The position numbers and the translations under genes are program-made. From Sphingomonas profundi (GTDB lineage Bacteria; Pseudomonadota; Alphaproteobacteria; Sphingomonadales; Sphingomonadaceae), in contig NZ_CP046535.1 of NCBI RefSeq assembly GCF_009739515.1, positions 2,170,001 to 2,234,000 on the forward strand: DNA of 64,000 bases. Direction: 5' to 3'. Below the pieces are notes generated by a model. The model was not told where the DNA came from, did not search any database, and was given only the letters and a program-made list of their open reading frames with translations. Positions 14,228 to 63,534 of this stretch are shown one piece after another (position 1 is the first letter of the stretch; every line of letters begins with the position of its first letter).

Positions 14228-14712
14228 GACGGCGCTTTCTCAAGATCCTCCCCGGCACGGGGAGGGGGACCATGCGCAGCATGGTGGAGGGGGTGCGCGA
14301 CACGCGCTGCGATGGCGGCGGTGACGGCATCGGGATCACACAGGATATCGGCCGCGGCGATGCGGACGACGGTCAAACCATTGGCCGCCATGAATCGATC
14401 GCGCGCGGCATCGTGCCTCGCTTTGTTGCCCATGTCGTGCGCGATGCCATCGATCTCGACGACCAGCCCGCTCGCGCGACAGAAGAAGTCGACCACATAA
14501 GGGCCGACCGGATGCTGCCGGCGGAACTTTACGCCTGCTTGTCCGCCCCGCAAGCGGGTCCAGAGCAGAACCTCCGGCAACGACATCGCGCGCCGCAATC
14601 GCCGCGCCACCGCGACTTCGGGCCGACGGAGTTGCCGGGCACCCCCTCCACCAGCCTGCGGCTGGTCCCCCTCCCCGTTTCGGGGAGGATCCGAGGCAGC
14701 CATCGTCGTCAC
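14221..14712 (-). CDS. DUF559 endonuclease-like protein enclosed by inverted REP elements
   Basis: About 163 residues. Core DUF559 (Vsr/PD-(D/E)XK-related) motifs: [58 protein letters not shown]. The acidic residues of VVDF and EIDG and the downstream His fit the nuclease core. The terminal segments ([15 protein letters not shown] and [15 protein letters not shown]) are translations of the flanking REP sequences. Start uncertain: GTG 14712 overlaps the mccB stop (GTGA), ATG 14703 also possible, or GTG 14616/14610 nearer the conserved core. It interrupts the mccB-mccA pair without breaking coupling. Function unproven. Confidence 0.75.
14244..14296 (+). repeat. REP element, left arm of the DUF559 unit
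   Basis: Begins GATCCTCCCCG; holds two small hairpins: CCTCCCCG/CGGGGAGG (loop GCA) at 14248-14266 and ACCATGC/GCATGGT (loop GCA) at 14270-14286, then GGAGGGGGTGC. The same layout recurs, inverted, at 14640-14692 and twice at 16324-16456. Confidence 0.85.
14640..14692 (-). repeat. REP element, right arm of the DUF559 unit
   Basis: Read on the minus strand: GGATCCTCCCCG, loop, CGGGGAGGGGGACC, AGCC/GGCT hairpin, GGTGGAGGGGGTGC. It is the inverted partner of 14244-14296, with the DUF559 core between them; arms differ mainly in hairpin loops and in the second stem. Confidence 0.85.
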
Positions 14713-16319
14713 ATCCGGAACACGCCGAACTGCGCGCGCTCGGGGATCGGGGCGTTCAGCGTGGCGGCGAAGGCGAGGCCCAGCACGTCCCTTGTCTGCG
14801 CCGGGTCGATGATGCCGTCGTCCCACAGGCGGGCGGTGGCGTAATAGGGGTTGCCCTCATCCTCATATTTGCGGCGGATCGGCGCCTTGAACGCCTCGGC
14901 CTCCTCCGCCGTCCACGTCTCCGCGTCGCGGTGCACCGTGGCGAGCACGGCGGCCGCCTGCTCGCCGCCCATCACGCTGATCCGCGCATTGGGCCAGCTG
15001 AACAGGAAGCGCGGCGAATAGGCCCGCCCGCACATGCCGTAATTGCCCGCGCCGAAGCTGCCGCCGATCAGCACCGTGATCTTCGGCACGCTCGCCGTCG
15101 CCACCGCCGTCACCAGCTTGGCGCCGTGCTTGGCGATCCCCTCCGCCTCATACTTCCCGCCCACCATGAAGCCGGAGATGTTCTGCAGGAACAGCAGCGG
15201 CACGCGCCGCTGGCAGGCCAGCTCGATGAAGTGGGCGCCCTTCTGCGCGCTCTCGGAAAAGAGCACGCCGTTGTTCGCCAGGATCGCCACCGGCATCCCC
15301 CAGATGCGGGCGAAGCCGCACACCAGGGTGGTGCCGTAGAGCGGCTTGAACGCGTGGAACTCGCTGCCGTCGACGATGCGGCCGATCACCTCGTGCACGT
15401 CGTAGGGCGCGCGCACGTCCTGCGGCACGATGCCGTAGAGCTCGGCCGGGTCCAGCCGTGGCGGGCGCGGCGGCTGGATGTCGATGTCGACCGCCTTCGG
15501 CCGGTTCAGGGTCGCGACGATGTCGCGGACGATCAGCAGCGCATGCTCGTCATTCTCGGCGACATGATCGACCACGCCGGATCGGCGGCCGTGCGTTTCC
15601 GCCCCGCCCAGCTCCTCGGCGGAGATCACCTCCCCCGTCGCCGCCTTCACCAGCGGCGGCCCGGCCAGGAAGATCGTGCCCTGGTCGCGCACGATCACCG
15701 TCTCGTCGGACATGGCCGGCACATAGGCGCCGCCGGCCGTGCAGCTGCCCATCACGCAGGCGATCTGCGGGATCCCCTCGGCCGACATCTGCGCCTGATT
15801 GTAGAAGATGCGGCCGAAATGGTCGCGATCGGGAAACACCTCGGCCTGGTGCGGCAGGTTGGCGCCGCCCGAGTCGACGAGGTAGATGCACGGCAGCCGG
15901 TTCTGCTGCGCGATCTCCTGCGCCCGCAGATGCTTCTTCACCGTCATCGGGAAATAGGCGCCGCCCTTCACCGTCGGATCGTTGGCCAGGATCATGCACT
16001 CGCGGCCCTGCACCCGGCCGATGCCGGCTATCACGCCCGCGCCCGGCGCGCCGCCCTGCCCGTCCACCTCGCCATACATGCCGTTCGCCGCCAGCGCGCC
16101 CACCTCCAGAAACGGCGAGGCGGGATCGAGCAGGCGGTGGACGCGGTCGCGCGGCAGCAGCTTGCCGCGCGACACGTGCCGCTCGCGATGCGCGGCCGAT
16201 CCGCCGAGCGCGGCGGCGGCGATCCGCCCGCGCAGGTCCGCCGCCAGCGCGCGATTGTGCGCGGCATTGGCGGCGAAGGCCTCGCCCGCCGGATCGACGA
16301 GAGTGGTGATCGTCATCAC
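14709..16319 (-). CDS. mccB: Methylcrotonyl-CoA carboxylase, carboxyltransferase beta subunit
   Basis: A 536-residue carboxyltransferase of the crotonase-like fold in two halves: [20 protein letters not shown] near residue 50, acyl-CoA-binding glycine-rich [16 protein letters not shown], and C-terminal [20 protein letters not shown]. Length and motifs fit MccB rather than PccB (the MCC-type GNYGMCGRA). Starts: GTG 16319 or the adjoining ATG 16316. A GGAGG at 16331-16327, ten bases before the ATG, belongs to the upstream REP doublet, so the repeat seems to supply the ribosome binding site. Confidence 0.93.
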
Positions 16320-16323
16320 GCAA

Positions 16324-16456
16324 GATCCTCCCCGGTACGGGGAGGGGGACCGCCAGCGAAGCTGGTGGTGGAGGGGGCGTGCGGCAAGGCACGGCGCGCG
16401 ACGCGCCCCCCCTCCACCATGCTGCGCATGGTCCCCCTCCCCGGCACGGGGAGGAT
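16324..16456. repeat. REP doublet (REPIN-like) between ivd and mccB
   Basis: Two REP copies in inverted orientation (16324-16376 and 16405-16456) separated by about 28 bases; the whole can fold into one long hairpin. Each copy has the GATCCTCCCC...GGGGAGGGGGACC core and a second small stem followed by GGTGGAGGGGG. It fills the ivd-mccB intergenic space almost completely. Confidence 0.88.
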
Positions 16457-16458
16457 CC

Positions 16459-48401: not shown

Positions 48402-48662
48402 CCTCTTCGCCTCTGCACCCACCCCTGTTCGCACCGTCTATCAGACTATACGGTTCCGCGACAGCCGCGCAGCCGATCGCCGGACCGTTCGCAAACACGC
48501 GACTTCAACACGGCGGCACGTCGACAACGCTTCGATGCATGTCCTCGCCGCGCGCGGCGTTCCCACTTGATCGGAAATGGACGCACAAGCGGCCGCACGC
48601 CTTTCCGCATTGCAGCATCAGCCGCTAGACCAACCGCTCCGGCAGGTGCGAGGATGAACGGC
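48402..48662. other. Intergenic region upstream of the OPX gene
   Basis: Less GC-rich than the rest, with no convincing open frame. It presumably holds the promoter of the export lipoprotein gene and that of the 42-residue protein. No hairpin or repeat stands out. Confidence 0.5.
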
Positions 48663-49232
48663 ATGAATGCGTCGAACGGCACGATGGTCGCCGCCCTGTT
48701 GCTGGGCGCGTCCGTGGCGCTGGGCGGGTGCGCGGCCACCCCGCCGCCGCTCTCCGCCGCCGCCGCCACGCGGGATGCTTATGCCCTCGGCCCCGGCGAC
48801 AAGCTGCGCATCACCGTCTATAACGAGCCGGCGCTGACCGGCGAATATACCGTCACCCCGTCCAGCACGATCGCCTTTCCGCTGGTGGGCGACGTGCCGG
48901 TGACGGAGCGGACGATCGATACGCTGCGGCAGGCGATCACCACCCGGCTGGCGGACGGCTACGTCAACGATCCGCGCGTGAGCGTGGAGGTGATGACCTT
49001 CCGGACTTATTACATCCTGGGCGAGGTCAACAAGCCGGGCGAATATCCCTATTCCGTGGGGCTGACGCTGGAGCAGGCGGTGGCGACCGCCGGGGGCTAT
49101 ACCTACCGCGCCAACAAGCGCCGGATCTTCCTGCGCCGCGCCCGCGCCGAGGAGCGGTCGGTCGATCTGCGCGGCACCGCCGTAAGCGTACTGCCCGGCG
49201 ACACCGTGCGCGTGGGCGAACGCTACTTCTGA
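48663..49232 (+). CDS. Polysaccharide export outer-membrane lipoprotein (OPX/Wza-like)
   Basis: A 189-residue protein. ATG 48663 has GAGG nine bases upstream (ATG 48654 is the alternative). Signal peptide with lipobox LGGC, then polysaccharide-export domain AYALGPGDKLRITVYNEPAL and a SLBB domain FRTYYILGEVNKPGEYPY / LTLEQAVATAGGYTYRANKR. Short compared with Wza (about 380), the minimal OPX type of sphingan-like loci. Its usual partner, a Wzc-type co-polymerase/kinase, is not adjacent. Confidence 0.92.
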   Translation: MNASNGTMVAALLLGASVALGGCAATPPPLSAAAATRDAYALGPGDKLRITVYNEPALTGEYTVTPSSTIAFPLVGDVPVTERTIDTLRQAITTRLADGYVNDPRVSVEVMTFRTYYILGEVNKPGEYPYSVGLTLEQAVATAGGYTYRANKRRIFLRRARAEERSVDLRGTAVSVLPGDTVRVGERYF

Positions 49233-49296: not shown

Positions 49297-51117
49297 TCAG
49301 CGGCACGAGAGCGCGTTCGGCCCGTCCGCGCGCGTCTCCACCGATCCGTCTTCGCGCAGCGTCAGCACGTGCGTGATCGGCAGGCCTGCCGCCAGGCGGT
49401 GGGCGATCAGGATCACCGTCGCGTCGCCGGCGGCGTCGATCAGGCGGGCGAGGATGGCGTCCTCCGCCTCCGCATCCAGCGCGCTGGTCGCCTCGTCGAG
49501 GATCAGCAGACGCGGCCGGCGCAGCAGCGCGCGGGCCAGCCCCAGCCGCTGCCGCTGCCCGCCCGAGAGATTGAGGCCGCGCTCGCCGATCCGCGTCTCA
49601 CCGCCGGCGGTCAGCTCGGCGAGCAGCGCGTCGAGGCCGCTCAGCCACACAACGCGCGCCACCTCGGCATCGTCCGCCTCGGGCCGGCCGAGCCGGACAT
49701 TGTCGAGGATGGTGCCGTCGATCAGCTCGACATCCTGCCCCGCCACCGCGATGCCGGCGAGCCACTGCTCGCGATCGATCCCGACCAGCGGCAGCCCATC
49801 CACCAGGATCGCGCCCGCCTGCGGATCGTAGAGGCGCAGCAGCAGGTTGACGATCGTCGACTTGCCGGCCCCGCTCTCGCCGCGCAGCAGCGTCCAGCGG
49901 CCGGCCGGGATGTCGAAGGATGCGCCGTGAAGACAGGGTTGGCGCTGGCCGGGATAGGCGAAGCGCACGCCCTCGAACGAGAGGCAGGCGCGGACCGGCA
50001 TAGCATCCGTGCCCCCGCCGGCGTCGATCGGCCGGCCGAGCGCGACCAGCTCGTCGATCGCGCGCACCGGCGCGAGCAAGGTGGCGAGGTGCAGCCGCTG
50101 CGCCTCGAACTCGCTGGCATAAGGCTGCATCCGGTACAGCAGCGCCACCGCCGCCAGCACCTGTTCGTAGGAGAGCCGGTTGCGCACGGCGACCACCGCG
50201 ATCAGCGCGACGATGCCGAGATAGGCGGCGTGGCTCAGCGGCTCGGCCATGCCGGAGGTGAGATCGCTGCGGATCGATCCGCGCCGCAGCCGGCCCGATT
50301 CGGCGGCAAAGGCGGCGGCCTGCGCCCGCGTCTGGCCGAAGATGCGGATCGTGCGCGCGGCCTGCAGCACCCGCATCGCCCGTGCGCTCACCGCCCGCGC
50401 GTTCACCGCCGCCGTCTCGCCGGCGCGCTCGGCAGGTCCGTCGATCAGGCGCAGCGCCAAGTTGAGCAGCAAGGTGCCGGCCAGCGCCATGCCGGCGATC
50501 AGCGGCGAGAGCAGGAACAGCAGCAGGCCGATGATCCCGGCGACGCAGCCGTTCAGCATCATCCCGGCGAAGCCGTCCGTCGCTTCCGCCACGGCCCAGC
50601 TGTGGCGGTTCAGCACGGTGAGCATGTCGCCCCAGGATCGGCGGCCGGTCTCCTCGAACGGCATCGTCAGGAAGCTGCGGAACAGGGCGCGGCGCACCCG
50701 ATCGCTGATCCCGGCCTCGGCGATCGTGGCGATCAGGCGGTGCAGCGTCACGCTGGCGACGCGCAGCAGCAGCAGCGCGAAGGCCAGGGTCGCGATCGTG
50801 CGCAGGTCGCCGCCGGTCACGGCGACGATGTGGCCGATCGCGCGATCGACGAGGCCGTCGTCGAAGTCCAGCGCACCGGCCCGCCCGCGGATCACGATCG
50901 AGAGCAGCAGGATGATCACGCCGATGCCGGCCGCCTCGGCCAGCGATGCCACCACGCCGATCGCCAGGATCACCGGCGCCAGCCACAGGCGCCCGCGCCA
51001 ATAGGGGCGAACGAGGCGGAACACGGAGACGAGCGCCGCCGCGCTGGGGCGCGGCGCGGCGTAATCCAGCCGATCGATGTCCGCCGGGTCGTCGTGCGGG
51101 TCTGCGCCGCCGGTCAT
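49297..51117 (-). CDS. ABC transporter, fused permease/ATP-binding protein
   Basis: A 606-residue half-transporter of the type IV exporter (MsbA-like) fold: six transmembrane helices in residues about 40-340, then the nucleotide-binding domain with Walker A RGESGAGKSTIVNLLLRLYD, signature LNLSGGQRQRLGLARAL, Walker B RLLILDEATSALD and H-loop IAHRLAAG. ATG overlaps the stop of the three-domain gene. Likely moves a lipid-linked saccharide or peptide; the operon context favours glycan or glycolipid. Confidence 0.9.
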   Translation of the reverse strand: MTGGADPHDDPADIDRLDYAAPRPSAAALVSVFRLVRPYWRGRLWLAPVILAIGVVASLAEAAGIGVIILLLSIVIRGRAGALDFDDGLVDRAIGHIVAVTGGDLRTIATLAFALLLLRVASVTLHRLIATIAEAGISDRVRRALFRSFLTMPFEETGRRSWGDMLTVLNRHSWAVAEATDGFAGMMLNGCVAGIIGLLLFLLSPLIAGMALAGTLLLNLALRLIDGPAERAGETAAVNARAVSARAMRVLQAARTIRIFGQTRAQAAAFAAESGRLRRGSIRSDLTSGMAEPLSHAAYLGIVALIAVVAVRNRLSYEQVLAAVALLYRMQPYASEFEAQRLHLATLLAPVRAIDELVALGRPIDAGGGTDAMPVRACLSFEGVRFAYPGQRQPCLHGASFDIPAGRWTLLRGESGAGKSTIVNLLLRLYDPQAGAILVDGLPLVGIDREQWLAGIAVAGQDVELIDGTILDNVRLGRPEADDAEVARVVWLSGLDALLAELTAGGETRIGERGLNLSGGQRQRLGLARALLRRPRLLILDEATSALDAEAEDAILARLIDAAGDATVILIAHRLAAGLPITHVLTLREDGSVETRADGPNALSCR

Positions 51118-54100
51118 GCGGCGGGGCGCGGCCTGCCGGTTTCCGCGTCCGTCCGCCGCAGCGCATCGACGAAGCCGTCGAGGTCGCCGAAGCCGCTCAC
51201 CTCGATGCGCGGCATGTGCATCGGATCGGAGAGCAGGGTGGCGATGCCGGGGGTGGTGCCCAGGCCGAGGCCGTAGCCGGCGAGCGCGGCCGCCCGCGCG
51301 GCGAGCGGATCGTAGGCGCCATAGGGGTAGATGATCGTGTCCGGCTCCCGCCCCAGCGCCTGCCCGATCGCCAGGCGGGATCGGAACGCCTCGCGCAGCA
51401 CCGCCTCGCCAGAGAGGGCCGGAAGGGCGGCGTGGCTGGCCGAGTGGCTGGCGATCACCGCGCCCTCGCGGGCGACGCGGCGCAGCGCCTCCCAGTCGAT
51501 CAGCGGCGCGGGCGGGCCGTAGGCGACATCCCAGTCGGCCCTGCCGCCGACCTTGTCGGTGACGATGCCGACGGTGGCGGCCATGCCGTAATGCTGGAGC
51601 AGCGGCCAGGCGGCGGTGGCGAAATCGCAATAGCCGTCGTCGAAGGTGAGCATCACCGGCCGCCCTTCCAGCGGCTGGTCGCGCGCCAGGGCGGCGATCC
51701 ACTCGGCCGGGGTGACGCCGCGATAGCCGTGGCGCCGCAGCCAGCGCAGCTGCGCCTCGAAATCGGCCGGGGACAGGCGATATTGCGCGAGCGCCGCCGG
51801 CCCGTCGTCCCGCTCGGCGATGCGATGGTACATCAGGATGGGCAGCGCCACGGCGCGCGCGCGGGCGGCCTCGCTGCGCGTCACGGTCGCGCCGCCCCAC
51901 ACCACATAGGCGCCATATTCCGGCAGCGGCGGCGCCTTGATCGGTCGCGTGGTCAGCTTCGGCACGATCGCCGCGTCCGTCTTGCGGAAGCGGTGGATGC
52001 GGTAGAGCTCGGTCTCGATCTGCGCCTCCAGCGCCAGACCCCCGACCGCGCCGAACACCTCGGCGATGGTCCGTGCGCCGAACACGCCATCCCAGTCGAA
52101 GCCGCTGCGGGCGCGCTCCTCCGATGCCTCGATCACATGCGCCATCACCAGCGCGCCGCCGGGCTTCAGGCGATCGGCGATGCGCCGCGCGATCGTGCGC
52201 AGCTTCGGCAGCGATCCACACTCGTACAGCACCTCGCTGCACGTGATCAGATCGTAGTCGCCGGCGATGTCGCCGTCGAAGAAATCGAGCTGGGCATAGT
52301 CGACATTGGCCTGCCCGGCGCATCGCTCGGCGGCGCGGCCGATCGCGATCGTGGAGATGTCGGTCGCCAGCAGGTGGCCGACGCGGGCGGCCAGCTGCAC
52401 GGTGAAGTGGCCCTCGGCGCAGGCCAGTTCCAGCGCGGCGGCGGGCCGGTCCGGGCCGATCAGGTCGAGCGTATATTCATACTTGGTCTGCTCGTACACG
52501 CTGTCATAGGCCCAGGGATTCTCCTGCTCGAACACCTGGTCCCAGTAAGCCGGGCTGTTCGCCGCCACCTCCCGCCAGGCCGGCGCGTCCGCCGCGGCGC
52601 CCGCCGTTCCCGCGGCGGCCTGTTCGCCGGCCAGCCGCCCGGCTTCCTGCCGGCCTACGGCGGCGATGGCCTCGCGGTAGGCGGCGTCGGTGCCGCCGTA
52701 GCGCAGCCGCCCGCCGATGCTGCGGCCGAGCGTGCGGGCGAGCGCCGCGCGCACGCGCAGCGGGGCGGCGCCGGCGATGCGCCCCGGCTGGGCGATGCGC
52801 GCCTTGATGCCCCAGCCGCGCGATCGCGACATCGCGGCGGCGGCGTGCAGCCAGAAGAGCGGCCGCGCCGCGCCGACTGATCGCATGATCCGCCGGCGCT
52901 CCGGCCAGGTCGGCGCCGCCGCCACGATCGCCTCGCGCAGCGCGGCCGGCGGGATCAGCCCCAGCGCCGGCAGGTGGACGAGGCCCAGCGCCCCCTCCCC
53001 CTCCACCACCTGCACGATCACGGCGTCGCAGCCGCGCGGATCGATCACCGGCAGCGGCTGCGCGATATCGACGCGGCGGACATGCACGCCGGACGAGGCG
53101 AACGGGCGATCGAACGCCGCCGGCCCCAGCACGCGCAGGCGGGCGAGGGCGCGACACGTATCGATCGCCCGCGTCTGACCGATGCGCGCGCCGAGCGCCT
53201 GCCAGAAGCGATCGACCTGCGGCTCCAGCCCGTCCCACCCGTCCGCCAGCGACGCGCTGTCCGTGCAGCGGCCGAAGGCGAGGCCGCCGACGAAGGTCGC
53301 CACGCCATGCTCCGCGATCAGCACAGCGCCGGCATAGTCGCCGATCATGTCGAGATAGGGAAGAGGATCCTCGCCCAAGGCGATGGCGTTGGCCGCGCAC
53401 ATCAGGATCCAGTCCAGCTTCAGCGGCAGCCGGTCCTCGTCCGGCAGGCCATCGGCGTAGCGCGGATCGCGCGCGGGCACGGCCGGGTCGGCGCGGCAGA
53501 CGCGATCGATCACCGCCAGCCCGTCCGTAGCCAGCGACAGCGGCCGGCGCGAGAGCGACTGCGGGCGGCAGTAATAGAAAGCCAGCATCTCCCGCACGCC
53601 GCGGAACGGCGCGCCGAGCCGGGCGATGCGCTGCCACAGATCCCAGTCCTCGTTCAGCGCCAGCGTCTCGTCGAACGGGCCGGCGGCGCGCATGATCCCG
53701 GCGCGGGTCAGCGCGCAGTGCACCGAGAGCACGCAGCTGCGCGCGAGCGTGCCGAACGGGTCCGACAGATCCGGCACGCGCTGCTCCTCAAGGATCCGTC
53801 CGTCCCGGTCGACGAGGGCGAAGTCGCAGTAGACGGTGCCGGCCTGCGGATGATCCCGCGCGAGATCGGTCAGCGTCTTCAGGAAGGCGGGGTGGAACCA
53901 GTCATCCGCGTCGAGGAAGCCGATCCACTCGCCGCGCGCCTCGCGCAGGCCGTGGTTGCGCGCGGCGGACGCGCCGAGATTGGGCTGGCGGAAGGCGCGG
54001 ATGCGCGGATCGCCGGCGGCGCGGCTGGCGATCACCGCCGCCGTCACGTCGGTCGATCCGTCGTCCACCACGATCGCCTCCCAATCGGCGAAGGTCTGCT

Positions 54101-54230
54101 GGACGAGGCTGTCCAGCGCGCGATCCAGGGTCGCCGCCGCCTGATAGGCGGGGATGACGATAGACACGCGGGGCGCGCCATCGTCCGCCACGGGCGGCCC
54201 CGCCGCGATCGGCTGGACCTGCCGGTTCAC
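51114..54230 (-). CDS. Three-domain GT2 / SAM-methyltransferase (NodS-like) / polysaccharide deacetylase (NodB-like) protein
   Basis: A 1038-residue protein, GTG 54230 overlapping the acyltransferase stop. Residues about 20-250: GT2 (VSIVIPAYQAAATLDRALD, IVVDDGST, GFLDADDW, NEDWDLWQRI). About 250-540: unassigned linker. About 555-750: NodS-like methyltransferase (SPAYWDQVFEQENPWAY, ALELACAEGHFTVQLA, LITCSEVLYECG). About 790-1035: NodB-type deacetylase (PILMYHRIAE, VMLTFDDGYCDFATAAWPLL, ASHSASHAALPAL, IIYPYGAYDP). Predicted to build, N-deacetylate and N- or O-methylate a sugar. Confidence 0.88.
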   Translation of the reverse strand: MNRQVQPIAAGPPVADDGAPRVSIVIPAYQAAATLDRALDSLVQQTFADWEAIVVDDGSTDVTAAVIASRAAGDPRIRAFRQPNLGASAARNHGLREARGEWIGFLDADDWFHPAFLKTLTDLARDHPQAGTVYCDFALVDRDGRILEEQRVPDLSDPFGTLARSCVLSVHCALTRAGIMRAAGPFDETLALNEDWDLWQRIARLGAPFRGVREMLAFYYCRPQSLSRRPLSLATDGLAVIDRVCRADPAVPARDPRYADGLPDEDRLPLKLDWILMCAANAIALGEDPLPYLDMIGDYAGAVLIAEHGVATFVGGLAFGRCTDSASLADGWDGLEPQVDRFWQALGARIGQTRAIDTCRALARLRVLGPAAFDRPFASSGVHVRRVDIAQPLPVIDPRGCDAVIVQVVEGEGALGLVHLPALGLIPPAALREAIVAAAPTWPERRRIMRSVGAARPLFWLHAAAAMSRSRGWGIKARIAQPGRIAGAAPLRVRAALARTLGRSIGGRLRYGGTDAAYREAIAAVGRQEAGRLAGEQAAAGTAGAAADAPAWREVAANSPAYWDQVFEQENPWAYDSVYEQTKYEYTLDLIGPDRPAAALELACAEGHFTVQLAARVGHLLATDISTIAIGRAAERCAGQANVDYAQLDFFDGDIAGDYDLITCSEVLYECGSLPKLRTIARRIADRLKPGGALVMAHVIEASEERARSGFDWDGVFGARTIAEVFGAVGGLALEAQIETELYRIHRFRKTDAAIVPKLTTRPIKAPPLPEYGAYVVWGGATVTRSEAARARAVALPILMYHRIAERDDGPAALAQYRLSPADFEAQLRWLRRHGYRGVTPAEWIAALARDQPLEGRPVMLTFDDGYCDFATAAWPLLQHYGMAATVGIVTDKVGGRADWDVAYGPPAPLIDWEALRRVAREGAVIASHSASHAALPALSGEAVLREAFRSRLAIGQALGREPDTIIYPYGAYDPLAARAAALAGYGLGLGTTPGIATLLSDPMHMPRIEVSGFGDLDGFVDALRRTDAETGRPRPAA

Positions 54231-55360
54231 CACGCCCCGATCCGGCGCGGCAGCGCGCCGCCGGACGCGGGCGGGCGACGATAGGCGAGGTGCGCGCGCA
54301 GGCGGTTGATCGGCGCCTCCACCCAGTGCCAGGACAAAGCCGCCACCGCCGCCGAGAGCAGGAACAGCTTCACCGTCAGCCACGCATCATAATGGAGCGC
54401 GCCCAGGCCGAGCTGGCGCGACGCGCGCTCCATCAGCGCGAGGATGAACTGGTGGTAGACGTAGATGCCGTAGCTGATCAGGCCGATGTAGCGCAGCGGC
54501 CGCAGCTCCAGCAGCGCGCCGGTGCGGCCGCCGAACCCGCTCGCGGCGCGCCACGTGATCGCGGCGAAGGCCAGGTTCATGCCCTCGTGCGCCGGCATGG
54601 CCAGCCATCCGCCGACGCGGCCGTGGCCCGCCATCAGCAGGGCCACCTGCACGGCGAACATGCCGGCGCCGATCCACCCCGCCCACGCCAGCCAGCCGAG
54701 CGGCCGGCGGCGATGCGCGGCGAGCGCCAGAGCGGCGCCGAACGCCAGCGAGTCGATCGACTGGAGAATGTTCGTCCGCTCGATCACCGGGTCCAGCGGC
54801 ACGATCGGCGCCCAGCTATAGGCGCCGGCCGCCGCCATCGCGCCGATCGCCCACGGCAGCGCCCGCCCCGGCAGCAGGAACAGTGCGAGCGGCCAGACGA
54901 GGTAGAATTGCCACTCGACCGTCAGGCTCCACAGATGGCCGGCGGCGGAGGTATCCTCGGCATTCTGGTCCAGCGCGAACAGGATGTCGGACAGTTGCAG
55001 CAGGTGCCAGTGCAGCTCGGCTCGGATGTTCGGCAGCGCCAGCATCGCCGCCACGGCGAGCGCCAGATAGTAGGCCGGGAACAGCCGCAGCATCCGCTTG
55101 GCGTAGAAGCGCGCCAGCGGCCGGCCGATCCCGTCTCCCCACGCGCGCCGCCTGTCCTGCGTGGCGAGCAGCTGGCCGGTGATCAGATAGCCGCTCAGGA
55201 CGAAGAACATCGTGACGCCGTAGGCGCCGAACTCGAAGAACTCATACTCGCCGACGCGATACGCCTCGGAGATGGTGTGCGAGAACAGCACCGCGATCAC
55301 GCACAGCGCGCGGATCGCATCGAGCTGGCCGGCGCGCCGTTGTGCGTGATCCGCATCCAA
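54227..55360 (-). CDS. Acyltransferase 3 (OafA/YrhL-like) membrane protein
   Basis: A 377-residue polytopic protein with about ten helices: QLDAIRALCVIAVLFSHT (catalytic His), GVTMFFVLSGYLITG, RMLRLFPAYYLALA, HLWSLTVEWQFYLVWPLALF, C-terminal WVEAPINRLRA. Acylates (often O-acetylates) sugars. TTG 55360 is proposed, with GGAG nine bases upstream; longer readings with ATG far upstream would overlap the divergent flippase gene. Confidence 0.85.
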   Translation of the reverse strand: MDADHAQRRAGQLDAIRALCVIAVLFSHTISEAYRVGEYEFFEFGAYGVTMFFVLSGYLITGQLLATQDRRRAWGDGIGRPLARFYAKRMLRLFPAYYLALAVAAMLALPNIRAELHWHLLQLSDILFALDQNAEDTSAAGHLWSLTVEWQFYLVWPLALFLLPGRALPWAIGAMAAAGAYSWAPIVPLDPVIERTNILQSIDSLAFGAALALAAHRRRPLGWLAWAGWIGAGMFAVQVALLMAGHGRVGGWLAMPAHEGMNLAFAAITWRAASGFGGRTGALLELRPLRYIGLISYGIYVYHQFILALMERASRQLGLGALHYDAWLTVKLFLLSAAVAALSWHWVEAPINRLRAHLAYRRPPASGGALPRRIGAW

Positions 55361-55652
55361 TCCGAGGCACTCCGTCGAGACGATGATGCCGGCGGTAATA
55401 TTCGTGTTGCGCGGCAGCAAATTCGATCCGGTCCGATTCGCTCTGCTTTCTCGCGCGAAGATGCGGATCGCGCCTTGGGCGAACTGGCGCACAGCTCCCG
55501 CAATAGCGGTCGCACCGGGAGATAGAACCAAGATCAACCCGATCGCGATTGCCCGCAGGGCGTTCCCGCCATAGCCCGCTGCGTCACAGGATGGTGGACG
55601 ACTTGGACGATTTCGGTTTGTGCAGTGCAACCGGCACGATCGCGGGCGCGCG
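55361..55652. other. Divergent promoter region between acyltransferase and flippase genes
   Basis: Less GC-rich stretches (55390-55480) are present but I could not define promoter boxes. A weak alternative start, GTG 55620, would extend the flippase by 11 residues. No repeats seen. Confidence 0.4.
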
Positions 55653-57122
55653 ATGATGACGCGGCGCGACTTCGCCGCCGCGCTCACCGCCGGCGCGGGC
55701 CTGCTGGCGCGCGCATCCAACCAGATCGCCACCGTGGTCGTCACGCTGGTGGCGACGCGCTATCTGGCGCCGGCGGAGTTCGGCGTGTTCGCGCTGGCAT
55801 CGATCGCCATCACCCTGATCCGCACCCTGCTCTACAGCGGGGCGTTCGAATATCTGCTGAAGGCGCGCGATGCGGGCGATTGCTCCAGCGAGAGCCTGGC
55901 CGTCAACCTCGCGCTGGCGGTGGGGCTGGGCGTGCTGCTGGGCGCGATCGCGCTGATCGCCGGCCGGCTGTTCGCGGCCGATGCGATCGCGCTCGCCCTG
56001 CTGGCTATGCTGCCCTCCAACCTCGTCTCGGCGGTGGCGGCGTGGCGCGAATCGCTGCTGCTGCGCACCGGCCGGCTGCGGCTCTATTACGCGCTCACCA
56101 CCCTGGCGGAACTGGCCGCGATGGTGCTGGCGATCGCGCTGCTGTTCGCCGGCTTCAAGGTGGCGGCGCTGATCTGGCAGCTCTACGCGCGTAACCTGGC
56201 CACGCTGATCCTCTACATGCTGGCCTCGCCTGCGATCTACTCGCGCCGTTTCTCGCGCGCGCGCTTCGTGGCGGTGCTGCGCTGGTCGACGAGCCGCTAC
56301 GCCGCGATGCTCGTCGGTTTCGGCGCCACCTACAGCGCCGATCTGTTCCTCGGCATCTTCCTGTCGCCGGCCGCCACCGGCCTGTTCCGCGCCAGCAGCC
56401 GCATCGTCACGGCGGTGACGGACATGTTCAACCAGCCCGCCCGCACCTTCGCCATGACGATCTTCTCCCAGCGCGCGGCCGCGGCCCAGCGATCGGACAC
56501 GATGTGGCCGGTCTTCTTCGTCATGGCGGCGGCGGTCGGCTGGGCCGCGCTGGTGGGTCTGGCGGCGGTGGCGACGGCCGTCGTGCCCGTACTGCTCGGC
56601 CCGCAGTGGCAGGCGGCGACGGCGCTGGTGCCGCTGCTGTGCCTGGCCCGCGCCTTCTCGCTGTTCGATACCGTCGCCAGCACCGTGCTGGTCGCCTATG
56701 ACGAGCAGCGCCCGCTCTTCTACATCCAGTGCACGAACGCCGCCGTGGGCGTGGCGCTGATCGCCCTGTCCGCGCCGTTCGGCCTGGTCGCGGTGACGAT
56801 CTCCACCGCCGTCTCCACCTGCCTCGGCTCGACCATCCTCGCCGTCGTCGCGCTGCGGCGCCTGCCGGGATCGCAGGCGATGCTGCGGCAGACCATGCCG
56901 GCGCTGATCCCGCCGCTGGTGGCGACGGCGGCCGGCGCGATGGCCGGGCGCGCGATGGCGACCGGCCTCGGTCTCGGCACGGCGCAGGCGGCGGTGCTGG
57001 CGATCGCGAGTGGCATCGTCGCCTGGCTGCTCGCGCTGATCGCCATCCGCCACCGGCTGCTGGACATGATCCTGCACCTGCGCGGCGATCCGCCCCACCC
57101 GGCCACGGCGCTGGCGGACTGA
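55653..57122 (+). CDS. Oligosaccharide flippase (Wzx/MOP family)
   Basis: A 489-residue polytopic protein with about 12-14 helices. Opening AGAGLLARASNQIATVVVTLVATRYLAPAEFGVFALASIAI (shown in part) with TRYLAPAEFGVFALA is the polysaccharide-export MOP motif; WSTSRYAAMLVGFGATYS begins the second half, and RASSRIVTAVTDMFNQPARTF is typical. Flips lipid-linked repeat units across the inner membrane. ATG 55653; TGA in the next gap of 204 bases. Confidence 0.88.
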   Translation: MMTRRDFAAALTAGAGLLARASNQIATVVVTLVATRYLAPAEFGVFALASIAITLIRTLLYSGAFEYLLKARDAGDCSSESLAVNLALAVGLGVLLGAIALIAGRLFAADAIALALLAMLPSNLVSAVAAWRESLLLRTGRLRLYYALTTLAELAAMVLAIALLFAGFKVAALIWQLYARNLATLILYMLASPAIYSRRFSRARFVAVLRWSTSRYAAMLVGFGATYSADLFLGIFLSPAATGLFRASSRIVTAVTDMFNQPARTFAMTIFSQRAAAAQRSDTMWPVFFVMAAAVGWAALVGLAAVATAVVPVLLGPQWQAATALVPLLCLARAFSLFDTVASTVLVAYDEQRPLFYIQCTNAAVGVALIALSAPFGLVAVTISTAVSTCLGSTILAVVALRRLPGSQAMLRQTMPALIPPLVATAAGAMAGRAMATGLGLGTAQAAVLAIASGIVAWLLALIAIRHRLLDMILHLRGDPPHPATALAD

Positions 57123-57326: not shown

Positions 57327-58451
57327 ATGATGCATGACGAGACGGGGTTCGAACTCGTCATCAACGGCCGCTTCCTCAGCCAGCGGATGACGGGCGTGCA
57401 GCGCGTCGCGCGGGAGTTCGTCGGCGCGCTCGATCGGCGGCTGGTGGAGGGTCGCTATCCCGGGCTGCGGGTGCGGCTGGTGGCGCAGCGCGACGCCGTG
57501 CTCGCCGGGCCGGCGCTCCGCGCCATCGCGGTCGAGCGGGTCGGCGGCGGCAGCGGCCATCGGTGGGAGCAGCTCGCCCTGCCCGGCCATGTCGGCGCGG
57601 CGGCCCTGCTGTGCCTCGGCAACAGCGCGCCGGTGCTGTCGCTGCTCGGCCGCCGCCCGGTCGCGGTGATGCTGCACGATCTGGCCTACCGGCTGTTTCC
57701 CGGCGACTATCCGCTCGCCTACCGGCTGCTGCACCGCGCGATCGACATGGTGCTGCTGAAGCGCGCGCGCCCGCTCGTCACCGTCTCCGCGGCGGAGCGC
57801 AGCGTGATCGGCGGGCTGCACCCGTCGGCCGGGCCGCGCATCCTCGTCGCCGCGAACGGCGGCTTCGCCAACGATGCGCCGCCCGCCGCGCGATGGCGGC
57901 CGCGCCGGGGGGACGGCGCCTACGGCCTCTATGTCGGCGCGCTCTCCGATCGGAAGAACGGCGCGGGCATCGTACAGGCGGCAATCGATCTGGCGCGGGC
58001 GACCGGCGCGGGCTTCAAGCTGGCCGGGCCGGCGGCCAAGGCGGCGCACGCCATACCGGAGGATGTGCGGACGCTGATCGAGTTCTGCGGCTATGTCGAC
58101 GATGCCGCGCTGCTCGATCTCTACGCCGGCGCCTCCTTCTTCCTGTTCCCCTCCTTCTACGAAGCGTCCGGCCTGCCGCCGGTGGAGGCGATGACGGTCG
58201 GCTGCCCGGTGATCGTCTCCGACATCCCGGTGATGCGCGAGCGGTGCGGCGATGCGGCGCTCTACTGCGATCCGCACGACCGCCACTCGATCCTGCGCGC
58301 CTGCCGCGACCTGATCGAGCAGCCGGCGCTGGCCGAGCGGATGAGCGCGCTCGGTCGCGCCCAGGCGGCGACCTTCACGTGGGAGAAGCAGGTCGATCGC
58401 GTGATCGGCGCGATCGCGGCCGAGATGCGGCGCGACCGCGCCGCCGGATGA
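57327..58451 (+). CDS. GT4 family glycosyltransferase
   Basis: A 374-residue GT-B enzyme: VINGRFLSQRMTGVQRVAREF (a common opening in O-antigen GT4s, shown in part), GLYVGALSDRKNGAGIVQA, FPSFYEASGLPPVEAMTVG with the E-x7-E motif. The 204-base gap upstream holds its promoter, with a TATACT-like element near 57259 and otherwise no structure. Stop overlaps the next start (ATGA). Confidence 0.9.
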   Translation: MMHDETGFELVINGRFLSQRMTGVQRVAREFVGALDRRLVEGRYPGLRVRLVAQRDAVLAGPALRAIAVERVGGGSGHRWEQLALPGHVGAAALLCLGNSAPVLSLLGRRPVAVMLHDLAYRLFPGDYPLAYRLLHRAIDMVLLKRARPLVTVSAAERSVIGGLHPSAGPRILVAANGGFANDAPPAARWRPRRGDGAYGLYVGALSDRKNGAGIVQAAIDLARATGAGFKLAGPAAKAAHAIPEDVRTLIEFCGYVDDAALLDLYAGASFFLFPSFYEASGLPPVEAMTVGCPVIVSDIPVMRERCGDAALYCDPHDRHSILRACRDLIEQPALAERMSALGRAQAATFTWEKQVDRVIGAIAAEMRRDRAAG

Positions 58452-59326
58452 CGTCGCCGGACCATGCCCGCTTCGACGTCAGCCTGATCGTCGCGACGCT
58501 CGGCCGCACCATCCCGAACCGGCGGCTGCTGACGAGTCTCGCCAAGCAGCGCGCCGTCTCGTTCGAGGTGATCGTCGTCGACCAGAATGACGAGGACATA
58601 TTGGCGCCGTACCTGCACGGCGACTGGCCCTTTCCCGTCACCCACATGCGCCGCCCCGGCGAACGCGGCGCCAGCCGCGCGCGCAACTGCGGCTGGCCGG
58701 TCGCGCGGGCGCCGGTGCTGCTCTTCCCGGACGACGATTCCTGGTATCCCACCGATTTCCTCGCGCGCGGCCTCACCCAGATGGCGGACCGGCGCGTCGA
58801 CATCCTCACCGGGCGATCCACCGACGAGACCGGGCTGACGATCAACGACCGCTACGCCCGCCGGCCGGGCCGCATCGGGCGGCACGGCGTGTGGACGCGG
58901 CAGATCGAGTGGATCACCTTCTTCCGCCGCGACGTGGTGCAGCGCGCCGGCGGCTTCGACGAGACGATCGGGCTCGGCGCGCCGACCCCGTGGCAGGCGG
59001 GCGAAGGGCCGGATCTCATTCTGCGCGCGATCGCGAACGGCGCCACCGCCTGGTACGATCCGGGCCTCACCGCCTTTCACGACGAACTGCCCACCCGCAA
59101 TCCGGATGCGGCGATGATGCGCAAGGGCCGCGCTTATGCGCGCGGCATGGGCCGGGTGCTGCGGCGACGGCGCTTCCCGGTCGGCACCCTGCTCTACTGG
59201 TGCGGGCGGGCGCTGCTGGCGATGCTGCGATCGGCCTTCGCGCTGGATTGGCGGCGCGCCCGCTACTTCTTCCTCGTCTTCCTCGGGCGCCTGGAAGGTT
59301 ACGCCGGCCGCGTCTGGCGCGGCTAG
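58448..59326 (+). CDS. GT2 family glycosyltransferase
   Basis: A 292-residue GT-A enzyme: DVSLIVATLGRTIPNRRLL, FEVIVVDQNDED, RPGERGASRARNCG, LLFPDDDSWYP (DxD motif), and EWITFFRRDVVQRAGGFDE. A single C-terminal hydrophobic stretch (GRALLAMLRSAFAL) may be peripheral. ATG 58448 overlaps the previous stop. Convergent overlap of four bases with the next GT2. Confidence 0.9.
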   Translation: MTSPDHARFDVSLIVATLGRTIPNRRLLTSLAKQRAVSFEVIVVDQNDEDILAPYLHGDWPFPVTHMRRPGERGASRARNCGWPVARAPVLLFPDDDSWYPTDFLARGLTQMADRRVDILTGRSTDETGLTINDRYARRPGRIGRHGVWTRQIEWITFFRRDVVQRAGGFDETIGLGAPTPWQAGEGPDLILRAIANGATAWYDPGLTAFHDELPTRNPDAAMMRKGRAYARGMGRVLRRRRFPVGTLLYWCGRALLAMLRSAFALDWRRARYFFLVFLGRLEGYAGRVWRG

Positions 59327-60336
59327 GTTTGCAGGTCCAGCGTGGCGAGCCGCCGCAGCCGCCCATCGAACGGCGGACCGAAGCGCGGGGCGCACTCGTC
59401 TTCCGGCACCATCTGGTCGAACGGCACGCGTGCCGCCGGCATCGCCCGGTGCCACCGGTTGCGCAGCCGCCGCGCGAGATCGGCGAGCGTCGCCGCCGGA
59501 TCGCACGCCAGCGCGCGGGTGCCGAGCGCGAGCGCGGCCGGCCAGTGGCCGCCCAGCAGCAGCCGCGCCGCCGCCGCGCGATCGGCGTCGGCGCCCGCCC
59601 AGCGCAGCACCGGCAGCGGCGACGGCATCGCGTGCAGGGCGGTGGCGATCGCCCGCCGTCGCGCCGCGCCCATGCGCGGCATGTCGGCCGAGAGGCTGTC
59701 GGGCACACGCCGGTAGCCGACCAGCCGGCGCGGCACGCAGGCGATCGGCGCACGCGCGGCAACGCGCAACTGCAACAGATAATCCTCCGCTCCCCGCCAG
59801 CCCCACGTCACCGCATCATAGCCGCCGGCCGCCAGCAGCGCCGCGCGCCGGAACACCGCCGCGCTGCCGCAGCCGACGAAGTTGGTCAGCAGGTGGCGGT
59901 GATAGCCGTGGCCCGCCACCAGCGGCAGCGGCGGGGTGGCGATCACATGGCCGGCCGCATCGATCACATGATGCAGCGCGTAGGCGAAGCCCGCGGTCGG
60001 CTGCCGCTGAAGCGCGGCGATCGTTTCCGCAAGGTAGAGCGGATGCCACACGTCGTCGGCATCCAGCGGCGCGACATGATCCGCCGTCGACGCGGCGATC
60101 GCGCGGTTGCGGGCGGCGATCGGCCCGGCATGCGGCTGGCGGATCAGGCGGATGCGCGGATCGGCGGCGGCGGCGGCAGCGACGAGCGCGGCGGTCATGT
60201 CGGTCGATCCGTCGTCCACCACGACGATCTCGACATCAGCCACCGTCTGCCGCCGCGCCGAGGCGAGTGCTGCGACAATCGTGCCGGCGGCGTTGCGCGC
60301 CGGCATGATGACGGCGGCGCGCGGACGATCGCTCAT
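59323..60336 (-). CDS. GT2 family glycosyltransferase
   Basis: A 337-residue GT-A enzyme: AAVIMPARNAAGTIVAAL, EIVVVDDGSTDMTA, HVAPLDADDVWHPLYLAET (DxD), and TWGWRGAEDYLLQLRVA (the ED acceptor motif). ATG 60336 overlaps the stop of the following GT2. It lies at the end of a five-gene reverse operon. Confidence 0.9.
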   Translation of the reverse strand: MSDRPRAAVIMPARNAAGTIVAALASARRQTVADVEIVVVDDGSTDMTAALVAAAAAADPRIRLIRQPHAGPIAARNRAIAASTADHVAPLDADDVWHPLYLAETIAALQRQPTAGFAYALHHVIDAAGHVIATPPLPLVAGHGYHRHLLTNFVGCGSAAVFRRAALLAAGGYDAVTWGWRGAEDYLLQLRVAARAPIACVPRRLVGYRRVPDSLSADMPRMGAARRRAIATALHAMPSPLPVLRWAGADADRAAAARLLLGGHWPAALALGTRALACDPAATLADLARRLRNRWHRAMPAARVPFDQMVPEDECAPRFGPPFDGRLRRLATLDLQT

Positions 60337-61586
60337 CCCTCGCCCCGCCCCGCCAGCCGGTCGCCCAGCAGGCGGCGGATCGCGCCGCCGCTCAGCCCGT
60401 CGCCGAGATCGGCCTCCACCATCAGCAGCGATCGCGGGCGGACGAACGGCACCTTGGCGACCAGGCGCTCCACGCCCGCCACCGGCGCGATGCCGCGCAC
60501 AAGATGATGCGGCGCCAGCATCACGCCCAGGCTGCGGCCGGCCCGCGCCGCCGTGGCGAAGCGCGCCATGCGGATCACCTCGCGCTCGATCCTCCGCGCA
60601 AGCGACGGGCCGGGCGGCGGCCCGCAGCGGCCTTCCACCTCCGCCAGCAAGGCTTCCACGCGCGGGCCGAACCGCTCCCACGCGGGCAGCAGATCGCGAT
60701 AGGGGCGGCCCGCGCCCAGCATCAGCCCCTCGGCCAGCGCGGCGATCGCCCGCGCCGGATCGGACGGGTGGCGCAGGCCGGGCAGCAGCGCCGGCAGCGC
60801 CAGCCCGCTCCCCCCGCCGCCGATCGCCATGCCGGCATTCCACATCAGCGCATCGAACGCGGCCTGCGCGGAGACCGGCACGCCGCCGTCGTCGGCAATG
60901 CGGCCCAGCATCGCCAGCGTGTCGCGCAGCATGGCCGCGCCGTCGCGGGTCAGCGAGGCGGGCGCGGACCGATAATGCGCCAGCGCGCGGTGCTCGATAG
61001 CGAAGCGGGCGCCGGCGCGCGCCAGCCGCCGCCACAGATCCCAATCCTCGTTGGTCGCCAGACGCGTGTCGAACCCGCCGAGATCGCGCAGAAGCGTCGT
61101 GCGGCAGACGATCGCGTGGATCGCCGTCGGCGGCCGCAGATCGCACAGGCCGATAGGATCGCGGTCAAGCCGCGGCGCGGGCGTGCGCGCCAGCCGCGTG
61201 CCGTCCGCCGACGGCCGCACATGGCCGCAGGCGATGGCATCCGCCTTGCCGCTGCGGCCCAGCCCGCGCAGCATCACGGCCAGATAGGCCGGATCGATCG
61301 TGTCGTCCGCGTCCAGGAACAGCGTCCACGCGCCGCGCGCCGCCGCCAGCCCGCGATTGCGCGCGGCGGCGGCGCCGGCGTTCGGCTGGCGCAGCAGGCG
61401 GATGCGCGGATCGGCGGCAGCCCACCGCGCCACGATCGCGGCGGTGGCGTCGCCCGATCCGTCGTCGACGACGATCGCCTCCCAGTCCGCCCGGCGCTGC
61501 GCCGTCAGGCTGGCCAGGGTGCGCCCGATCGTGCCCGCCGCCTGGAAGGCGGGCACCACGACGCTGACGGCCGGATCATCGCGCAA
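60333..61586 (-). CDS. GT2 family glycosyltransferase
   Basis: A 417-residue GT-A enzyme with VSVVVPAFQAAGTIGRTLA, EAIVVDDGSGDATAAI, TLFLDADDTIDPAYLAV (DxD) and LATNEDWDLWRRLARAG. Opening and motif order resemble the GT2 part of the three-domain protein at 51114-54230, suggesting related specificity. The start lies 11 bases inside the upstream GT4 gene. Confidence 0.9.
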   Translation of the reverse strand: MRDDPAVSVVVPAFQAAGTIGRTLASLTAQRRADWEAIVVDDGSGDATAAIVARWAAADPRIRLLRQPNAGAAAARNRGLAAARGAWTLFLDADDTIDPAYLAVMLRGLGRSGKADAIACGHVRPSADGTRLARTPAPRLDRDPIGLCDLRPPTAIHAIVCRTTLLRDLGGFDTRLATNEDWDLWRRLARAGARFAIEHRALAHYRSAPASLTRDGAAMLRDTLAMLGRIADDGGVPVSAQAAFDALMWNAGMAIGGGGSGLALPALLPGLRHPSDPARAIAALAEGLMLGAGRPYRDLLPAWERFGPRVEALLAEVEGRCGPPPGPSLARRIEREVIRMARFATAARAGRSLGVMLAPHHLVRGIAPVAGVERLVAKVPFVRPRSLLMVEADLGDGLSGGAIRRLLGDRLAGRGEG

Positions 61587-62658
61587 GGCGCAGGATGTGC
61601 GCCAGCAGGCCGCGCCCCGCGTCCGCCCAGCGGAAGGTCCGCGCCCGCTCCCGCGCCGCCGTCACCTTCGCGGCGCGCAATACGGGATCGGTCGCGTAGC
61701 CCAGGATGGCGTCGGCCCACTCCCCCGGCGCATCGGTGCCGGCGTAGAGCACGGCATCGACGCACACCTCCGGAATGGCGCCGGCGGGTGCCACGACGGA
61801 CGGGCAGCCGCTGAGCGCCGCCTCGATCGGCGGCAGCCCGAACCCCTCGGTGCGGGAGGGAAAAGCGAGGCACAGCGCCTCCGCATAGAGCGTGCGCAGC
61901 GCATCGTCCGCCACCTTGCCGACGAAGCGGGCGCCGGCCGGCGGATGCAGCCCGGCCGCGCGCAGCGCCGCCTCCGCCATGCCCACCACCACCAGGACGA
62001 GATCGGCGAGGCGCGGGTCGGCGAACGCCTCGAACACCACGCGCACGTTCTTGTAGCTCTTGGCGCTGCCGAACAGCAGCACATAGCCGCCGGGCGCCAG
62101 GCCGAAGCGGCTGGCGCCGTCCGGCGCGGCCGGCCCGTCGATCAGATGGTCGGCGCCGTTGGGCAGCACCGCCGTCCGTTCCAGCGGGGCCACGCCAGTC
62201 AGGTCCATCAGCCGGCGCGAATATTCCGATACGGTCAGCACCTGCGCGCTGGTGCGGGCCATCAGCGGCGTGAGAAAGCGGTAGCCCAGCCGCTGGCGCG
62301 CCGGATAGGAATTGTCGGAAAAGAGGAACTGCACGTCGTGCAGCAGCAGGATCTTGCGAGCGTGGGCGATCGGCGCAAGGTTGCACAGATTCACCAGCAC
62401 TGCGCCCGCCGCGCGCCGCGGCAGCACCGCCTGCTCCCACGCCTGGGTGCCGGCGCCGCGTTCCCGCACCACGCGGATCGTCGACAGCTCCGGGATCCAG
62501 CTTGCCCCCAGCGGCAGGATCACGCGCGCGTCCGGCCGCCCGTTCGCCGGCATCGCGCCGAGTTCGTCGTCCACCGCGCGGATCAGCCGATCGGCCACGC
62601 GGTGCACGCCGTTCAGGCTGCCGCCGTAGAACTTGCCGTTGAACACGATCGGCCGCAC
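61576..62658 (-). CDS. GT4 family glycosyltransferase
   Basis: A 360-residue GT-B enzyme: PIVFNGKFYGGSLNGVHRVAD (opening shown in part, similar to 57327-58451), VLLFGSAKSYKNVRVVFEAF, LAFPSRTEGFGLPPIEAALSG with E-x7-E. ATG 62658 follows the upstream GT2 stop by three bases. Confidence 0.9.
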   Translation of the reverse strand: MRPIVFNGKFYGGSLNGVHRVADRLIRAVDDELGAMPANGRPDARVILPLGASWIPELSTIRVVRERGAGTQAWEQAVLPRRAAGAVLVNLCNLAPIAHARKILLLHDVQFLFSDNSYPARQRLGYRFLTPLMARTSAQVLTVSEYSRRLMDLTGVAPLERTAVLPNGADHLIDGPAAPDGASRFGLAPGGYVLLFGSAKSYKNVRVVFEAFADPRLADLVLVVVGMAEAALRAAGLHPPAGARFVGKVADDALRTLYAEALCLAFPSRTEGFGLPPIEAALSGCPSVVAPAGAIPEVCVDAVLYAGTDAPGEWADAILGYATDPVLRAAKVTAARERARTFRWADAGRGLLAHILRLAR

Positions 62659-62661: not shown

Positions 62662-63534
62662 CTACTCCAGTTCGAGGATGCGACGGGGGTGGAGCCGGCC
62701 GCGCGCCAGATCGGCCAGCGCGCGCAGGTTGCCGCGCAGCCGGCCGCCGCGATCGACCCACGGCTCCGGCCGCAGGCTGCGGCCGACATTGGCGAGCAGG
62801 TTGTTGCGCATCATCCGCCAGGCCAGCGCGCGCGGGATGGTGCGCTTGCGCAGCATGTGGACGGGGTTGGCGATCTGCGAGTAGCCGAAGCGCCGGCCGG
62901 AGGTGCGGCCGCGCTTGATGCCCATGTGCACGCCGCGCATCGCCGCCGCGCCGACCAGCCGCCCGCGCCGGCCGACGCGGTAGGTGAAATCGATATCCTC
63001 CAGCCAGCCGTAGAGCGGCAGATCCTCGTCGAAGCGGATATCGCCGGTGGCGGAGAGGCGCACCGCCATGTTGCAGCCGTACATCGCCTCGGTGGGCCAG
63101 GTGGGCGGCTGATCCGCCGGCGGCACGTCGCGCGCCAGCATGTCGCGCGCCTGCTCGAAGCTGAAGCCCGGCCCGTCGATGCCGTCGGCGACGATGCGGC
63201 CGGTGGCGCCGGCGATGTCCGGGTTCCGCTCCAGCAGCATTTCCAGTTCGGCGATGTAGCGTTCGTCGGCCACGAAATCGTCGTCCAGGAACAGCAGCAC
63301 GTCGGCCCTGTCGCGCAGCGCCTCGATGCCGGCGTTGCGCTGCCGGCAGGATCCCTTCTCGCTCAGCAGCAGCGTCACGGCGAAGCGGTCGGAGGCGATG
63401 CCGGGCGCATCCTCCGCCCGCACCGCGGCGATCAGCACGCCGTCCGGCGGGCGGGTCTGCCGCTCCAGGTGCAGCACGGTCTGGCGCACCGTCTCCGGCC
63501 GGCTGAGCGTGGCGACGACGACGAATATCCTCAC
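62662..63534 (-). CDS. GT2 family glycosyltransferase
   Basis: A 290-residue GT-A enzyme: RIFVVVATLSRPETVRQTV, SEKGSCRQRNAGIEAL, VLLFLDDDFVADERYIAEL (DDD metal-binding), PLYGWLEDIDFTYRVGRRG (ED motif). Start GTG 63534 overlaps the upstream stop (GTGA). Similar to GT2s that glycosylate polyisoprenyl or O-antigen chains; exact transfer unknown. Confidence 0.88.
   Translation of the reverse strand: MRIFVVVATLSRPETVRQTVLHLERQTRPPDGVLIAAVRAEDAPGIASDRFAVTLLLSEKGSCRQRNAGIEALRDRADVLLFLDDDFVADERYIAELEMLLERNPDIAGATGRIVADGIDGPGFSFEQARDMLARDVPPADQPPTWPTEAMYGCNMAVRLSATGDIRFDEDLPLYGWLEDIDFTYRVGRRGRLVGAAAMRGVHMGIKRGRTSGRRFGYSQIANPVHMLRKRTIPRALAWRMMRNNLLANVGRSLRPEPWVDRGGRLRGNLRALADLARGRLHPRRILELE

Follow-up and report, generated by a model that had tools for sequence, protein, structure and literature searches.

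A glycosyltransferase, NodS-like methyltransferase and deacetylase fused in one protein of a Sphingomonas exopolysaccharide locus: a candidate module for N-methylated amino sugars

The polysaccharide N-deacetylases PgaB, IcaB and PplD act outside the cytoplasm. A different setting is offered by the nodulation enzymes: for Rhizobium IRBG74, it has been reported that chitooligomers are never N-methylated unless they have been deacetylated beforehand, so that NodS depends on NodB (PMC5080398). Here, we compare these systems with a 64,000-nucleotide stretch of the Sphingomonas profundi genome (contig NZ_CP046535.1, positions 2,170,001 to 2,234,000; the window in what follows), in which one gene encodes a glycosyltransferase of family 2 (GT2), a NodS-like methyltransferase dependent on S-adenosylmethionine (SAM) and a deacetylase of carbohydrate esterase family 4 (CE4) in a single chain. 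With slightly better than even confidence we propose that this protein carries out three successive steps of exopolysaccharide synthesis in the cytoplasm: transfer of an N-acetylhexosamine, its de-N-acetylation and, still ahead of export, N-methylation of the resulting amine. The gene and its domains are the following.

51114..54230, minus strand: trifunctional protein of 1038 residues, GT2 + NodS-like methyltransferase + CE4 deacetylase (Pfam, residues, AlphaFold2, Foldseek)
53829..54164, minus strand: core of the GT2 domain, residues 23-134 (PF00535 Glycos_transf_2, 120.1 bits; DDGS, DxDD and EDWDLW intact)
52053..52529, minus strand: NodS-like SAM methyltransferase domain, residues 568-726 (PF05401, 60.5 bits, cut-off 24; 3ofj at E 3.5e-15; LELACAEGHFT motif)
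51273..51674, minus strand: CE4 polysaccharide deacetylase domain, residues 853-986 (PF01522 Polysacc_deac_1, 78.3 bits; TFDDG and SHxxxH intact; PplD 6dq3 and PgaB nearest)

A preliminary description of this DNA had placed the three activities in one polypeptide, which is borne out by the Pfam domains within a single open frame. Codon composition, gene overlaps and homologues rule out a chance reading frame: the G+C content is 0.90 at the third codon position compared to 0.54 at the second, and the gene shares four bases with each neighbour, GTGA with the acyltransferase gene upstream and ATGA with the ABC exporter gene downstream. Scans for promoters and terminators gave no signal above shuffled sequence. 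The presumed catalytic residues, assigned from family motifs, were checked in 37 three-domain proteins, namely the window protein, whose numbering is used, six from plasmid loci and those from 30 of the 80 best genome loci. All 37 keep D56, D57, D107, D109 and E194 in the GT2 domain, E601, G607 and D624 in the SAM domain, and D864 and H933 in the deacetylase, while D865 and H929 are each kept in 36 of 37. The same description had named a loss of deacetylase or methyltransferase residues as a point against it; in the window protein these residues are all present. D56 varies in further fusions: at this position the four copies at loci L194 and L195 have N, C, I and C, respectively. An AlphaFold2 model (31-row alignment) reached a mean pLDDT of 83.1, and Foldseek matched its GT2 part to GT-A enzymes (6p61, chondroitin polymerase), its methyltransferase part to NodS (3ofk, TM 0.84 by target) and its deacetylase part to PplD 6dq3 and PgaB.

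How far does the likeness to the nodulation enzymes go? Scored domain by domain with NCBIfam models, the methyltransferase reaches 68.2 bits with NodS (equivalog cut-off 300) ahead of a runner-up at 31.3, and the solved NodS structure 3ofj is matched as well. The deacetylase, in contrast, scores 104.3 bits with PgaB and only 17.7 with NodB (cut-off 240), and the best model for the GT2 domain is TuaG at 103.7 bits, NodC being absent from the matches listed (best 25 of 28). Of the NodC, NodS and NodB labels given initially, the one for NodS thus holds as the nearest named methyltransferase family, whereas those for NodB and NodC were dropped in favour of a PgaB/PplD-like deacetylase and a TuaG-like glycosyltransferase. 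NodA was found in none of six fusion-carrying genomes (that of the window and five relatives), while the same search matched both nod plasmid records used as a positive control. Judged from its sequence, the window locus is not a nod system, and the trifunctional protein may work partly like the pair NodB-NodS.

In the proposed mechanism the GT2 domain would transfer a sugar, most likely an N-acetylhexosamine, onto a repeat unit growing on a lipid carrier. The N-acetyl group of this sugar would then be taken off by the PgaB/PplD-like domain, leaving an amine that the NodS-like domain would methylate with SAM as donor. The unit, now carrying an N-methylated, positively charged hexosamine, would be flipped by Wzx or by the coupled ABC exporter, and may also be O-acylated by the membrane acyltransferase. 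The fusion, the gene overlap and the residues conserved in each of the three domains are directly observed; we infer the cytoplasmic location, the sugar and its acceptor, the order of the steps, methylation on N and not on O, and export through Wzx or the ABC protein.

An indication of the substrate comes from the relatives of the methyltransferase. At E 0.001 a search with the PF05401 family matches 173 of 240 class genomes and is too broad for finding partners. When a profile was built from the methyltransferase domain of the fusion itself (A4), it ranked the fusions above a second tier, in which most methyltransferases stand alone (about 60-127 bits), with 63 distinct rows, 41 of which had a locus returned and enter the partner count. 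Within a stretch of about 3.4 kb, 33 of these 41 loci contain a deacetylase (32 by a PIG-L motif, one by the CE4 profile), compared to none of 29 control methyltransferases matched by PF05401 (L096-L124). Fisher's test gives 1e-12, a value that shared descent makes too optimistic. All twelve second-tier loci read at greater length, mostly the best-scoring ones from the order set, carry the PIG-L motif, eleven by the scan and L201 by a HADDE variant. An annotated PIG-L deacetylase lies directly upstream of the methyltransferase in Novosphingobium and 2.8 kb away in Deinococcus. In addition, at 4899-8069 (plus strand) of locus L125 an 805-residue frame terminates in a NodS-like domain and has a CE4 gene immediately after it, not far from genes for an undecaprenyl-phosphate sugar transferase and an outer-membrane polysaccharide export protein (OPX); part of the frame looks flippase-like by eye and matched no Pfam family. 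Taken together, the deacetylase company of the related methyltransferases, the arrangement in L125 and the dependence of NodS on NodB favour methylation of an amine bared by a deacetylase.

A recurrent cluster emerged alongside these counts, in which genes for an acyl-CoA dehydrogenase-like protein, a PIG-L deacetylase and a NodS-like methyltransferase are joined, often with a glycosyltransferase (L198 4187-6530, minus strand; L212 2176-5397, plus strand; L208 about 1.0-4.5 kb, plus strand). It also occurs in the window's own genome, where a scan of all frames around such a methyltransferase at 3.07 Mb found a PIG-L motif and an acyl-CoA dehydrogenase match.

The descent of the methyltransferase domains was followed in two trees. 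In the larger one, with 91 domains (23 from fusions, 41 of the second tier, 26 of the 29 controls, and L125), the fusion domains form one clade (96/92); second-tier L144 groups with the controls, and L098, a control, is placed next to the second tier. A 51-domain tree, made from a chosen subset of these rows plus two plasmid loci and three NodS sequences, unites fusion, PIG-L-linked and NodS domains, L125 and three controls (L096, L097, L099) on one side of a branch (93/85) that lies below the starred level, with the other eleven controls on the opposite side. NodS is placed near, yet apart from, the fusion's methyltransferase domain.

The gene lies in a larger glycan locus, whose remaining annotated features in the window are these.

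48654..49232, plus strand: OPX protein, Wza type (PF02563 + SLBB; start inferred)
49297..51117, minus strand: exporter-type ABC protein, MsbA/HepA-like (PF00005 + PF00664; NCBIfam best HepA, 253.4 bits, below the cut-off of 725; ATGA overlap)
54227..55381, minus strand: membrane acyltransferase, Acyl_transf_3 (PF01757, 106.5 bits; GTGA overlap; start codon inferred)
55656..57122, plus strand: Wzx-type flippase (PF13440, 81.2 bits)
57327..58451, plus strand: GT4 glycosyltransferase (PF00534)
58448..59326, plus strand: GT2 glycosyltransferase (PF00535)
59323..60336, minus strand: GT2 glycosyltransferase (PF00535)
60333..61586, minus strand: paralogue of the fusion's GT2 without methyltransferase or deacetylase (47% identity, 226 alignment columns)
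61576..62658, minus strand: GT4 glycosyltransferase (PF13692)
62662..63501, minus strand: GT2-like glycosyltransferase (21.5 bits, slightly below the Pfam cut-off of 23.3; start inferred)

Just past the window edge, in the stretch L008, follow genes for a GT4 enzyme, Wzc, a beta-barrel protein and an undecaprenyl-phosphate sugar transferase, as well as a hydrophobic protein of 483 residues (3534-4982) without a Pfam match, which we read as Wzy from its position only. Given the co-occurrence of Wzx, OPX, the co-polymerase (PCP/Wzc) and the undecaprenyl-phosphate sugar transferase, the last two in L008 outside the window, the locus is, by its predicted gene products, probably a Wzx/Wzy-type exopolysaccharide cluster. 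A holdfast locus was considered and not adopted (HfsG 30.4 bits, cut-off 500; HfsH 20.3 bits, cut-off 400). The Acyl_transf_3 membrane family usually carries out O-acylation, and for the window acyltransferase an O-acyl decoration is likelier.

Export genes also accompany the fusion elsewhere. Of 37 fusion loci, including that of the window, 16 have an exporter-type ABC gene (at least 120 bits) no more than 6 kb away, compared to 4 of 46 other GT2 loci in the same scan (L048-L094 without L053; L027, L038, L041 and L043 are in neither set); Fisher's test gives 5e-4 for loci that are not independent and partly on short contigs. Several Rhizobium loci and one Methylococcaceae locus have the order epimerase-glycosyltransferase-fusion-GT2-ABC, and at copy 1 of L194 fusion, ABC exporter and Acyl_transf_3 stand together as in the window. 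Among plasmids, the ABC exporter had no match at E 1e-40. In L192 and L193, both from genomes of the same family as the window genome (sphingomonads), the order is acyl carrier protein (ACP), FabF-type ketoacyl synthase, acyltransferase, glycosyltransferase, fusion, GT2 and ABC. The ACP, ketoacyl synthase and acyltransferase genes beside these fusion operons occupy 13856-16458 (minus strand) in L192 and 12687-15310 (minus strand) in L193, and here an acylated product is plausible.

The architecture as such is not new. In RefSeq, H1, H2 and H4, three relatives from plasmids, bear the name 'trifunctional glycosyltransferase/class I SAM-dependent methyltransferase/polysaccharide deacetylase', while H5 and H6 are labelled as glycosyltransferase only and the record of H3 carries no annotation at that place. 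The initial statement that the product has not been described agrees with the open-licence papers searched, in which we found no description of this architecture, of N-methylglucosamine polysaccharides or of N-methylated amino-sugar exopolysaccharides. Of the best 80 genome loci, which were found through GT2 patterns, 30 have all three domains in one frame, and their hosts include Alphaproteobacteria, a Methylococcaceae bacterium, cyanobacteria, a planctomycete, one member each of the Chthoniobacterales and Deltaproteobacteria, and a Gemmatimonadetes bin. The fusion is uncommon in the sampled genome sets. Of the 296 genomes in the order set, 6 carry it, with three domains seen in each; in the phylum set a high-scoring methyltransferase domain was found in 10 of 398 genomes, nine with three domains and one (L136) without the GT2. 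The closest full-length relative compared is copy 1 of L194 with 55% identity, and L027, at a contig end, reaches 66% over its best segment. This GT2 type also enters other fusions, a GT2-deacetylase (L043 9938-12370), a GT2-deacetylase-GT2 (L048 832-3677) and a GT2-GT2 that adjoins a similar ABC exporter (L050 10930-12993).

Do the three domains then act in series on one sugar? Several observations weigh against this. A fusion alone does not prove that all domains act on one residue, and the loci behind the partner counts are related by descent and thus not independent. Four of the controls, L096, L097, L098 and L099, score 101, 110, 84 and 78 bits with A4, which is the level of the second tier, yet stretches of 9, 14, 6.5 and 6.5 kb at these loci contain neither a PIG-L motif nor a CE4 match; moving them to the second tier changes the deacetylase count to 33 of 45 and leaves 25 clean controls. 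In the 91-domain tree the nearest neighbours of the fusion are L125 and the controls L096, L097 and L099 (97/75), not the PIG-L-linked group, and a sister relation of the two groups is unsupported in both trees. Finally, L194 (12581-15484, plus strand) and L195 (12771-15770, minus strand) contain tandem second fusion copies, one clade in the 91-domain tree (100/99), that keep the methyltransferase motifs and have lost the TFDD and HxxxH of the deacetylase, so that a chain may be methylated without prior deacetylation by the same polypeptide. These second copies and the four methyltransferases without a deacetylase, together with the breadth of NodS-like Pfam matches, lend weight to the idea that the domains serve different residues or positions: the deacetylase would free an amine on one sugar, the methyltransferase would form an O-methyl ether or cap the chain at another place, and the fusion would reflect co-expression. 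We regard this as possible, though on balance doubtful, because deacetylases of two unrelated folds associate with these methyltransferases, also after the reassignment, and because the dependence of NodS on NodB (PMC5080398) likewise points to the amine. Far less probable is that the free amine is never made and the deacetylase removes O-acetyl groups or serves as a sugar-binding part. Acetylxylan esterases do belong to CE4 (PMC5855634), and copies with lost deacetylase residues exist, but the nearest matches PgaB, IcaB and PplD are N-deacetylases and the window protein retains its metal-binding residues.

The serial reaction within a polymer pathway also has to be weighed against a Nod-factor-like glycolipid, an N-methylated and acylated amino-oligosaccharide exported by the ABC protein independently of Wzy polymerisation. 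The ABC association, the gene order shared by Rhizobium and Methylococcaceae loci and the operons of L192 and L193 would fit such a product. At the window, on the other hand, the Wzx-type flippase, OPX, Wzc and undecaprenyl-phosphate sugar transferase make a polymer likelier, NodA was found in none of the six genomes, and a search keeping overlapping matches found no relative of ACP or ketoacyl synthase in the window or L008; the two stand next to a fusion only in L192 and L193, i.e. in 2 of 44 stretches (41 distinct places). We therefore judge the glycolipid quite improbable here. What remains of the original suggestion is that acyltransferase and ABC exporter are neighbours coupled to the gene by overlaps, whereas a polymer is likelier than the free acylated saccharide. 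A broader and still unlikely conjecture is that the fusion forms the core of a widespread, undescribed, non-symbiotic pathway to N-methylated amino-sugar glycans, with the operon of L192 and L193 leading to a lipid-bearing N-methylated oligosaccharide by Nod-factor-like logic with different kinds of deacetylase, synthase and acyltransferase.

Should the three steps indeed run in series, bacteria beyond the known nodulation systems put N-methylated, charged hexosamines into their surface glycans, where they could affect adhesion and recognition. It would also provide a testable function for a fusion whose database name merely lists the domains, as well as for the related clusters of PIG-L and methyltransferase genes.

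Among known systems, the RefSeq trifunctional proteins (WP_243254667.1, WP_013334356.1, WP_094088823.1) are most alike, with the same three domains, order and conserved residues at 35-36% identity to the window protein, but their gene neighbours vary between lineages; we know of no experimental function for them. PgaB, IcaB and PplD share the CE4 fold and motifs and are the best sequence and structure matches of the deacetylase, which in the fusion differs by following a GT2, almost at the chain start, and a methyltransferase, both presumably with cytoplasmic substrates. Rhizobial NodS resembles the methyltransferase domain in its fold, in a CAxGxFT motif and a PW shared close to the start, and in working with a deacetylase (PMC5080398); in contrast, it is a stand-alone protein, with about 28-31% identity among the annotated NodS rows listed (60 of 171 records). 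Holdfast synthesis in Caulobacter and Hirschia is likewise a polysaccharide pathway whose deacetylase, HfsH, sets adhesion (PMC8449245). The HfsH model, however, gives the fusion's deacetylase those 20.3 bits against a cut-off of 400. To our knowledge, no holdfast system has a methyltransferase fusion. The clusters of acyl-CoA dehydrogenase, PIG-L deacetylase, SAM methyltransferase and glycosyltransferase combine a related methyltransferase with PIG-L, the family of GlcNAc-PI de-N-acetylase, and thus differ from the fusion in using another deacetylase family and, in the loci read at length, separate genes.

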